A DNA stretch of 24,895 nucleotides. Source: a virus. Positions 7,025 through 24,895 of the stretch are shown here, one piece after another. The position numbers and the translations under genes were made by a program. Location: positions 1 to 24,895 of the IMG/VR virus record IMGVR_UViG_3300021379_001794; one strand, written 5' to 3'. The number at the start of each line of letters is the position of its first letter. Positions within the stretch are counted from its first letter, which is position 1. The notes below the pieces were generated by a model. That model had not been told where the DNA came from, made no database searches, and saw only the letters and a list, made by a program, of their open reading frames with translations.

Positions 7025-7447
7025 CTAAAATATACTTCCCTTCTTTGTGATTTCTTCAAATGTCCCAACTAAATCAAGCATACGACTTTTCATTTCTATC
7101 TTTAGTTCTTTCATTTCTTTTATTACTTGCTTCAATGCGATTGGATACCTGTCTTCTAACTTGTGTCCAAGTATCACCGCGTGTGTTAAAGGTATTGCAT
7201 CTGATTGAAAATATTTTATTTCATTACCTTTTTTTGCTCTGAATTTAAGGTCTAATACTGTCTTTTTAGTATCTTCTTTTGGTATTACAATACGCTTTCC
7301 AATTTTTTTAAATCCCTTACCGTTAACAGAGCAAGATAAAGTAAAACCCTCTAAGCCTGGAGCTTCGACACTTCCCTCTATCCTGTTATTCGGTAAACCG
7401 TGATTTTCTACTATGTGTACCAAACCATCTTTTAATACAAACTTCAT
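7025..7447 (-). CDS. Unrecognised protein: N-terminal beta domain plus C-terminal helix (140 aa)
   Basis: Residues about 1-90 look like a compact beta-rich domain (GFTLSCSVNGKGFKKIGKR, then a region ending in FQSDAIPL). Residues about 95-140 are helical and charged (LKQVIKEMKELKIEMKSRML). There is no membrane segment or signal peptide. It overlaps the upstream membrane-protein gene by 4 bases (ATGA), and an AGGAGGT site sits 9 bases before the ATG. A beta domain followed by a coil suggests a small virion or baseplate-like adaptor. I cannot name a family. Confidence 0.6.
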   Translation of the reverse strand: MKFVLKDGLVHIVENHGLPNNRIEGSVEAPGLEGFTLSCSVNGKGFKKIGKRIVIPKEDTKKTVLDLKFRAKKGNEIKYFQSDAIPLTHAVILGHKLEDRYPIALKQVIKEMKELKIEMKSRMLDLVGTFEEITKKGSIF

Positions 7448-7941
7448 TGGCTATCGACCTCCTTGGTCCATTGGTCGTCTATCATTTGTAGACGCTCTTT
7501 TCTTAGCTTCTCCCTAAATTCTTTTCTTTTACCCTCACTTTGTAATTCAACCTTCTTTGCCATCTCTAACATCATATCAATTTCTTCACTAGTTAAATAT
7601 GCGGAGAGTTGGTTTTGTAGCTGTAATTTTCTAAATGCCTCTTTGACATCTCGGTATGCCTGTGCTAACCAACCTCGCAACCAACGAATAAACAAAGCTA
7701 ATAAGATGGTTACAAGCCACCCTGGTGTTAAGGCTCCGAGTCCCCACCAGAATGCTGTCCACCCGAGTGCAAATGCTTGAAACCCTGGGTCATCTATAAA
7801 TGCCACCGCATACATCGGGAAGTTAAATATGAGTAGTGCCAGGAGAGCATCGATTCCATATTTCTTTAGGAAGTCATATGCCCATTTGAACCCTGTCCAC
7901 TTACCAATTACTACTAATACGCCCTTTACTTTTTTCTTCAT
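7444..7941 (-). CDS. Membrane protein with charged coiled-coil C-terminus (165 aa)
   Basis: Hydrophobic stretches occur at about residues 30-50 (GIDALLALLIFNFPMYAVAF) and 55-87 (an aromatic, Trp-rich stretch through WLVTILLALFIRWL), followed by a basic, helical tail (residues about 95-160). The N-terminus is basic (MKKKVKG). The ATG overlaps the stop of the 66-residue gene by one base (TAATG). A Trp-rich double span with a charged tail could be a holin, but no lysin is adjacent. It begins a run of membrane-protein genes interrupted only by the 140-residue protein. Confidence 0.6.
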   Translation of the reverse strand: MKKKVKGVLVVIGKWTGFKWAYDFLKKYGIDALLALLIFNFPMYAVAFIDDPGFQAFALGWTAFWWGLGALTPGWLVTILLALFIRWLRGWLAQAYRDVKEAFRKLQLQNQLSAYLTSEEIDMMLEMAKKVELQSEGKRKEFREKLRKERLQMIDDQWTKEVDSQ

Positions 7942-23367: not shown

Positions 23368-23460
23368 TCACTTCTTCTTTTTCTTTTTTGGTTTCATCAT
23401 AGCTTTTGGCATTTTTTTAGCTGCTGACTTTCCTTTTTTGTATCCGACTCCTGCTGGCAT
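23368..23460 (-). CDS. 30-residue lysine-rich mini-protein
   Basis: The reading frame MPAGVGYKKGKSAAKKMPKA continues to a C-terminal run of six Lys. 13 of its 30 residues are Lys. The ATG shares one base with the stop of the 54-residue gene (TAATG), and an AGGAGGTAGACGATA site lies upstream, so translation is coupled and the frame is probably real despite its length. The following gene starts 11 bases later with a ribosome site that overlaps this gene's stop. A DNA- or RNA-binding role is an inference from charge only. Confidence 0.7.
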   Translation of the reverse strand: MPAGVGYKKGKSAAKKMPKAMMKPKKKKKK

Positions 23461-23624
23461 TATCGTCTACCTCCTCTAGGTTTCTTCGCAGTCTTCGCTG
23501 CGCGTTTGAAGTTAGCCGCCGTAGGCGCACCTTTACTTCCTGGTTTTCTCATTTTCTCTCCGCTGCCTGCCTTAATGCGTTTTCTCTTCGCGTGTATATT
23601 TGCGTATAATCCTTTCTTAGCCAT
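23460..23624 (-). CDS. 54-residue basic protein of a recurrent small phage family
   Basis: It begins MAKKGLYANIHAKRKRIKAG and continues with GSGEKMRKPGSKGAPTAANF. I recognise this pattern (KGLYANIHAKRKRI, then SGEKMRKPGSKGAPT) from small proteins near the portal/terminase genes of other phages, especially aquatic ones, but know no proven function. Lys and Arg dominate, with no acidic stretch. The SD GAGGTGAT overlaps the stop of the upstream gene, 7 bases before ATG. The conserved, exposed, basic sequence suggests nucleic acid binding or a capsid-internal protein. Confidence 0.8.
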   Translation of the reverse strand: MAKKGLYANIHAKRKRIKAGSGEKMRKPGSKGAPTAANFKRAAKTAKKPRGGRR

Positions 23625-23634
23625 TTATATCACC

Positions 23635-23916
23635 TCACCATTTGACTTTATTGGCCCAGTATGCCGCACTCATTTTACCTTTTGCAATGTTTGCGCCGTG
23701 TCGAGCCTTAAACGATTTTCTTCTCGCCTTTGATTTTGCATCCATCTTCTTACCTGCTGTTGATACACCTTGCTGTCCAAAACGAATGGTCTTTACTTTG
23801 TCTCCTTCCTTTGCTACAACAATATGTGATTTCTTAGGGTGTGAGGGTGTGCGTTTCGGTTTGTTGAATCCCGAAACCCCTGCTCGCTTGAGGCGAGGGT
23901 CTTTTTCTTTTGCCAT
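23635..23916 (-). CDS. Basic protein with conserved KSFKARH/YWANKVKW motifs (93 aa)
   Basis: The sequence is strongly basic. It starts with DPRLKRAGVSGFNKPKRTPS and includes SHIVVAKEGDKVKTIRFGQQ in the middle and KSFKARHGANIAKGKMSAAY near the end, finishing in YWANKVKW. I recognise this full-length pattern from numerous phage genomes, where it lies near small basic proteins like the neighbour here. I do not know a proven role. The single-base overlap with the membrane protein gene upstream (TAATG) makes the start secure. Possibly a virion-internal or packaging-associated DNA-binding protein. Confidence 0.85.
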   Translation of the reverse strand: MAKEKDPRLKRAGVSGFNKPKRTPSHPKKSHIVVAKEGDKVKTIRFGQQGVSTAGKKMDAKSKARRKSFKARHGANIAKGKMSAAYWANKVKW

Positions 23917-24191
23917 TATTTCAACTCCCTCGGGAGGCCAAAGTCCCGCTTAATATCTTCTGGAAACAATTCAAATGGTTTAATCTTATCTGACATTGTC
24001 TCATCATTCTCGCTTACTTTCTTTTTCCACTCATCCATCATTCGGTCAAGTTCTTTTACTTTTTCTTCATAATCTTGTCTTTTACTAAATTTAAGAAAAA
24101 TTTCAAAACGGCTAGCAAGGAACCCACCAAGAAGAACGCCGAATAAAAATATAATACAAAAAGAAAGCCAATAAAAAAGTTGTTCATTCAT
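23916..24191 (-). CDS. Single-pass membrane protein with coiled-coil tail (91 aa)
   Basis: An N-terminal membrane segment (about residues 5-27, FYWLSFCIIFLFGVLLGGFL) is followed by a charged helical part (QDYEEKVKELDRMMDEWKKK) and an acidic, Phe/Pro-containing end (ELFPEDIKRDFGLPREL). The ATG has AGAGGAGGCATAG upstream. It sits directly after the HPr-like gene with one base between them. It has a topology shared by small holins and by i-spanins, but no lysin is visible nearby, so the function is open. Confidence 0.6.
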   Translation of the reverse strand: MNEQLFYWLSFCIIFLFGVLLGGFLASRFEIFLKFSKRQDYEEKVKELDRMMDEWKKKVSENDETMSDKIKPFELFPEDIKRDFGLPRELK

Positions 24192-24192
24192 T

Positions 24193-24402
24193 CTATGCCT
24201 CCTCTAATAATCGATAGATTGCATCCATCGTGTCCATATCATTTGTTATGACATCAATGTTATCTATATCTACGAGTGACATCACTCCCAATATCGACTT
24301 TGCGTCGACCTGTATAAATCCTCTTTTGAGGTATACTGCTTGTTTCGTTTTTTGTGCAGCCATTACAATATCAATGGCTAAACGACTGTTCATTGTTTTC
24401 AT
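24193..24402 (-). CDS. HPr-like protein lacking the active-site histidine (69 aa)
   Basis: The segment AKSILGVMSL (residues 34-43) is the hallmark around regulatory Ser46 of Firmicutes HPr (KSIMGVMSL in Bacillus). Aligning Bacillus subtilis HPr without gaps from H15 to S46 puts phage Asn5 on H15, Arg7 on Arg17, Ala9 on Ala19, and Ser36 on S46. The predicted pattern helix (A9-K20), strand, strand, SILGV helix, strand, final helix (MDAIYRLLEE) fits HPr. The first beta strand is missing or very short. Because His is replaced, it should not carry phosphate in the PTS. It may bind HPr partners such as HPr kinase or CcpA, or simply reuse the fold. The start codon overlaps the terminase stop by one base. 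Confidence 0.75.
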   Translation of the reverse strand: MKTMNSRLAIDIVMAAQKTKQAVYLKRGFIQVDAKSILGVMSLVDIDNIDVITNDMDTMDAIYRLLEEA

Positions 24403-24895
24403 TATTCTCCTCCCCCATAACTTTCATACCAATCTTGCTCGACTTCCACATTGTCTCTAAGCTCCCACGGTAAGTTCTCTTGTCTAACAAAATTAAATGC
24501 TTTCTTATCTGTAAAGTAGACTTCCGTTACCACCTTGTCTGGGTCATCTGGTAATTCTTGGATGATATATCTTAGTGCATCCATTGTGTGGTTGTTTGCA
24601 TCGATTGGTTTCTCACCTCGGTTCTTTTCTTGATTAAGTTCCGTAGGTTTATATTTATATTCCCTTAACTCTCGAATCATATTGACACAATTCGAATGTA
24701 TTTTTAATTTACCTAAATCAAAGTAGGTAAACACTTTCATTAGTCCAGACTCTAAACGGTTGTTCCCTGGCTTGAAGAAGATACCATATTCTCTGTAGTG
24801 TCCAAAGTAACTTCTAAAGTCTGCGCCACGGTTTTGACCCTTCGGGTCCGCGACAGGCATTCCGTTTATCATTCCTGGTGGTACTTTACTCATCA
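24402..24895 (-). CDS. terL: Terminase large subunit, C-terminal nuclease part (partial, runs off right edge)
   Basis: The frame is open to the window edge; the ATG at 24893 is probably internal (Met of VMSKVPPG or similar). The visible 164 codons contain a segment ending in VADPKGQNRGADFRSYF, the conserved GIFFKPGNNRLESGLMKVF, LKIHSNCVNMIRELREYKYK and then DANNHTMDALRYIIQELP. The final DA(x)NH-x-x-DALRY element is the usual last acidic motif of the RNase H-like nuclease domain that cuts concatemeric DNA. The ATPase domain is not in this window. The acidic C-terminal tail (EVEQDWYESYGGGE) may contact the portal. Confidence 0.85.
   Translation of the reverse strand, partial: MSKVPPGMINGMPVADPKGQNRGADFRSYFGHYREYGIFFKPGNNRLESGLMKVFTYFDLGKLKIHSNCVNMIRELREYKYKPTELNQEKNRGEKPIDANNHTMDALRYIIQELPDDPDKVVTEVYFTDKKAFNFVRQENLPWELRDNVEVEQDWYESYGGGE

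Follow-up and report, generated by a model that had tools for sequence, protein, structure and literature searches.

HPr serves the Bacillota as a hub in both sugar uptake and carbon control. Crh of Bacillus, which has Gln at the position of the phosphorelay residue His15, acts through phosphorylation of Ser46 and binding to CcpA. HPr residues 43-55 lie within the modelled interface with enzyme I (PMC3724859), and Arg304 of CcpA contacts phosphorylated Ser46 at a site that is also bound by Crh (PMC4591507). Mutations in HPr, as a hub protein, can affect some partners selectively (PMC12445079). HPr-like proteins have already been annotated in metagenomic phages, and no paper on the function of phage HPr-like proteins was found in the literature searched.

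The stretch of viral DNA analysed here, called the window (IMG/VR record IMGVR_UViG_3300021379_001794, 24,895 nucleotides), is a phage head/tail region that contains the C-terminus of the large terminase subunit (terL), a P22/SU10-type portal, a scaffold-like protein, the major capsid protein, and tail proteins. It also encodes a small HPr-like protein, whose gene and surroundings are laid out as follows.

24193..24402, minus strand: HPr-like protein, 69 aa, without HPr strand 1; adding 10 to a residue number gives the HPr position
24388..24390, minus strand: codon 5 (Asn), aligned with the phosphorelay His15; 7 of 12 distinct family sequences have His here
24274..24306, minus strand: codons 33-43 (DAKSILGVMSL), the Ser46 helix, HPr 43-53; strongest purifying selection in the gene
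24295..24297, minus strand: codon 36 (Ser), equivalent to Ser46; the same in 12/12 distinct family sequences
24402..24893, minus strand: C-terminal part of the large terminase subunit, whose gene runs off the window; its stop codon and the start codon of the HPr-like gene overlap
23916..24191, minus strand: next gene downstream, for a 91-aa protein with a single N-terminal membrane segment; also kept in phages without the HPr-like gene

The initial annotation recognised the 69-residue frame and left its strand unstated; it is the minus strand, and the plus strand of 24193-24402 has no open frame. The start codon and the terL stop overlap within TAATGA, a strong ribosome site, GGGGGAGGAG, precedes the start, and a single base separates the end of the ORF from the gene for the 91-aa membrane protein.

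The window protein resembles HPr in its match to the PF00381 (PTS-HPr) profile, its predicted fold, its His15-Ser46 register, and a helix 2 nearly identical to that of Bacillota HPr. Unlike HPr, it lacks strand 1, matches the NCBIfam HPr models weakly and under their cut-offs, and has Asn5-Ser6-Arg7-Leu8 in place of an active site with His15 and Arg17-Pro18, the latter pair being generally missing from its family. With Crh it shares the fold, the retained Ser46 helix, and the loss of His15 (here to Asn); it differs from Crh in being phage-borne and 69 residues long, in lacking strand 1 and Arg17-Pro18, and in having relatives most of which carry His15. Other HPr-like proteins from phage contigs (L013, L030; BFVD A0A8S5S213, A0A8S5PSI8, A0A8S5S9E0) are likewise small and phage-borne. 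Two of these (L013:6013-6246 and L030:2868-3095) form a second, distant phage HPr-like group in different phages; they keep VDAKSILGV and lack the His15 motif but, unlike the window family, have an N-terminal stretch and fall on a separate long branch.

Homology, predicted fold and the missing strand

Scans of IMG/VR found a full-length relative at 12 loci (L001-L011 and L029). The HPr-like proteins of L003 and L004 are identical, so that with the window there are 12 distinct full sequences; L012 is a partial copy at a contig end, and L050 holds the last 23 residues at a contig edge. In the 'phages' collection the window protein had no relatives at E values up to 1, and the matches obtained there with L007 (weak) and with cellular HPr queries lie mostly in unannotated contigs, for which bacterial contamination is likely. 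Searches of bacterial genomes returned full-length HPr genes as the only relatives, and a prophage copy was not found among them.

Profile searches and structural models agree that the product of the ORF is a real protein with a predicted HPr fold. In the Pfam comparison that the initial annotation had proposed, the window protein scores above the cut-off of the profile (E = 4.5e-6; 27.1 bits against 23); the profile also matches all 11 members of the family alignment (best 8.1e-10), and 9 of 15 related records pass its cut-off. When a profile of 11 family members was compared with PDB sequences, the 24 matches were all HPr or Crh (best 1.2e-7); ubiquitin matches in the PDB sequence search were rejected, as their scores were sums over weak repeats, none of which was significant as a domain by itself. 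No significant PHROGs family was obtained for the window protein, nor did PADLOC match it. AlphaFold modelled the window protein with a pLDDT of 90.9 and a pTM of 0.80, and the His-bearing relative L007 with a pLDDT of 93.2. Foldseek, the structural check called for at the outset, matched both models to Crh/HPr at probability 1.00; its top matches for the window model are the Crh structures 1mo1/1mu4, and the structural alignment with Crh has about 28% identity. The ungapped register first suggested for the protein, with Asn5 at His15, Arg7 at Arg17, and Ser36 at Ser46, continues into the SILGVMSL helix and holds both against the B. subtilis HPr sequence and independently against PDB chains. 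A fold unlike HPr, a failed Pfam match, or homologues without the Ser and the SILGV helix had been named as contrary outcomes; what was found is an HPr-like predicted fold, a matching profile, and a Ser and SILGV helix kept in all homologues.

One feature of the fold had gone unnoticed, namely the absence of the first beta strand. In 10 of the 12 inspected sequences, the window included, an in-frame stop lies no more than 12 codons upstream of the start; the exceptions, L005 and L007, are open slightly further, and conserved strand-like sequence precedes the start in none of the 12. HPr strand 1 is therefore absent rather than misannotated. The AlphaFold model of the window protein likewise has no full strand at this place, and the window family thus lacks the complete HPr domain with strand 1 that is seen in Crh.

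Helix 2, the relay site and a proposed docking role

The sequence DAKSILGVMSL is almost invariant among homologues that are just 40-50% identical. In the 12 distinct sequences D33, A34, K35, S36, I37, L38, G39, V40, and L43 do not vary and M41 and S42 each show one change, an invariance that may be overstated because helix-2 peptides were among the seeds of the homologue searches, which could have missed members with an altered helix. In the same 12 sequences the helix-2 codons have a pN of 0.032 and a pS of 0.69, while the remaining codons have a pN of 0.38 and a pS of 0.69; the equal pS and the low helix-2 pN point to purifying selection at the protein level, centred on the HPr Ser46 helix. 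Pairwise comparisons of the window with L002 (dN 0.08, dS 1.11) and with L001 (dN 0.07, dS 0.34) also give dN/dS well below 1. Part of the conservation of helix 2 could be structural. Ser36 is never Asp, Thr, or Ala in the family; Asp or Thr could equally cap a helix. The Ser alone is no proof of phosphorylation, since Ser46 is conserved in the HPr of E. coli although E. coli is not known to have an HPr kinase.

The relay site shows a different pattern. At position 5 (HPr 15), 7 of the 12 distinct sequences carry His, 4 carry Asn, and 1 carries Asp. Position 7 is R, D, G, or K, with Arg17 retained by just one of the seven members that have His, and position 8 is always Leu or Ile, so that Pro18 occurs in 0 of 12. 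The Arg17 equivalent, a CcpA contact in HPr, is unconserved in the phage family, a point against the mimic proposed below. The combination seen in Crh, a Ser46 helix with His15 replaced, is found in the window, L001-L004, and L006, and not in the His-bearing members. In a tree with cellular HPr (85 columns, several branches weak), the Asn/Asp forms are grouped beside the His-bearing L005; with cellular HPr as outgroup and His in the deeper branches, His is the likely ancestral state. The loss of His15 is therefore confined to one subgroup and is not the family trait that the window sequence had seemed to indicate. The broader proposal, that phosphorelay was given up while the Ser46 helix was kept, does fit the pattern of selection. 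Position 5 may still have a role, because most homologues keep His there.

The decay of the relay part together with the freezing of the helix-2 face favours a mimic that, like Crh, competes with HPr for one of these partners or takes its place there. In this reading, to which we give about an even chance, the phage protein would be a truncated imitation of HPr/Crh, docking on host partners of HPr through helix 2 without relaying phosphate. From the His15 position onwards it retains the HPr fold to the C-terminus, without strand 1, and it presents an unchanged docking face (Lys45-Ser46-Ile47-x48-Gly49-Val50-Met51 in HPr numbering) beside a decayed relay site (His15, Arg17, Pro18). Its action would most likely be Crh-like, with binding to at least one host partner that recognises HPr through helix 2; candidates are HPr kinase/phosphorylase, for which it might be a substrate or decoy, CcpA, for which it might be an effector, and enzyme I or EIIA domains, for which it might be a competitor. 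The predicted outcome would be a shift in host sugar uptake or catabolite control, with no phosphate being carried. That the conserved face is used to bind host partners is what we infer, and during infection the protein probably competes with the host's own HPr. A further, tentative possibility is a phage-encoded decoy without strand 1 that would occupy HPr kinase/CcpA (or enzyme I/EIIA) by way of the invariant helix 2 and thereby override the catabolite control or sugar uptake of the infected host, the His and Asn alleles being swapped among phages according to the host.

The His at position 5 raises the alternative that the members bearing it are genuine phosphohistidine carriers in a phage or host relay, the Asn/Asp forms, including that of the window, being derived and left with a binding function only. 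The occurrence of His across the deeper branches, where it is likely ancestral, is consistent with such carriers, as is the L007 model, which places the His just before helix 1 as in HPr. However, the His-bearing members nearly all lack Arg17 and entirely lack Pro18, strand 1 is missing, and Asn and Asp are tolerated at position 5 while almost nothing is tolerated in helix 2; a phosphocarrier role is accordingly judged unlikely.

Genomic setting and exchange of the gene

The HPr-like gene is present in 10 terL-to-portal loci, the window included, and absent in 8 that were retrieved by portal-based searches (L052, L053, L054, L055, L056, L057, L058, and L061). A profile search of these 8 whole records, most of which are fragments, found no HPr-like copy elsewhere. 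In all 9 relatives with both terL and portal, the gene stands immediately before the 91-aa membrane gene and either directly after terL or after 1-3 small genes. Other genes precede it in L003, L005, and L008. The L005 phage, which has a different portal, carries the gene apart from terL; adjoining it there is the gene for a membrane protein that shares about 90% identity with the product of window 7444-7941.

Identity of the HPr-like proteins does not follow that of the portals (Spearman rho 0.03), whereas that of the adjacent membrane protein does (rho 0.48); these correlations are descriptive, the pairwise values being interdependent. Between L009 and L010 the HPr-like proteins are 97% identical and the portals 69%; between the window and L001 the figures are 90% and 68%. 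The gene is thus accessory: its presence varies among close relatives, and its alleles are shuffled between portal lineages. Its absence from relatives and its exchange between lineages argue against a packaging function and for a host-directed protein.

Immediately upstream of the membrane gene there seems to be a slot for insertions. In L052 the HPr-like slot is taken by a DUF502 membrane protein (L052:2130-2678), and in L049 a HEAT-repeat protein precedes the membrane gene (L049:27-749). Paenibacillus phage API480 was considered as a carrier of the HPr-like gene and rejected, since its terL-portal interval holds a membrane protein instead. The membrane protein of window 7444-7941 is about 90% identical across phages whose portals are about 70% alike, and its homologue adjoins the HPr-like gene in several relatives while lying far away in the window; this high identity despite divergent portals, together with the variable placement, indicates that it too is exchanged.

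These data bear on the suggestion, also raised in the initial annotation, that the HPr fold has been reused as a structural or packaging part of the phage, such as a small terminase or a head accessory protein. The position in the head operon, the way the start overlaps the window's terL stop, and the constant membrane-gene neighbour speak for such a part. But the link with terL and packaging is not borne out: the 8 related loci do without the gene, other genes intervene in some relatives, alleles have been exchanged across portal lineages that differ by about 30%, and L005 carries the gene apart from terL. In addition, the invariant segment is the very helix with which HPr binds its partners, and a packaging role is considered improbable. 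The setting does count against the helix-2 mimic in one respect, as the gene sits in a late head/packaging operon and not among early takeover genes.

Further alternatives, the host and the meaning of a viral HPr

The missing strand allows another mechanism, in which the open strand-4 edge would accept strand 1 of host HPr or Crh, or would pair with itself, so that a mixed dimer titrates host HPr. Strand 1 cannot be encoded upstream of the start, given the in-frame stops, and a full strand is also missing from the model; solved structures include a Crh dimer (2rlz) and a domain-swapped HPr (1y50). Strand exchange alone does not account for the selection on helix 2, and we regard it as quite unlikely. 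That the gene is a decaying, functionless HPr fragment, as its truncation and missing relay residues might suggest, is very improbable in view of a dN/dS well below 1, a nearly frozen helix 2, and intact start and ribosome sites.

The host is probably a member of the Bacillota. Among cultured phages, the Paenibacillus phages API480 and SV21 come nearest in terL, portal, and capsid, with 36-45% identity. The L004 contig encodes a 548-aa lipoprotein (L038:11784-13430) with a PnrA/Bmp substrate-binding domain (Pfam 4e-47) and a C-terminal extension, which is up to 57% identical to chromosomal proteins of Bacillota and is possibly a host-derived surface protein. HPr kinase was matched in 3 of 15 Bacillota genomes that have an L004-like PnrA protein, a count whose negatives are unreliable because the B. 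subtilis control was unmatched as well; B. subtilis has HPr kinase. Window 23635-23916 and 23460-23624 encode small, very basic proteins. The former (PHROG 7595, function unknown) is up to 82% identical to proteins of marine and environmental phages (Roseobacter, Synechococcus, and others), and was rejected as a clue to the host because it is widely common to Roseobacter phages and cyanophages.

What is new in the family described here is the form without strand 1, the nearly invariant helix 2, and the exchanged His/Asn alleles. No description of a virus steering host carbon regulation in this way was found in the literature searched. A viral copy pared to the docking helix would naturally compete with the HPr hub, and it would offer a ready tool with which HPr docking can be separated from phosphorelay.
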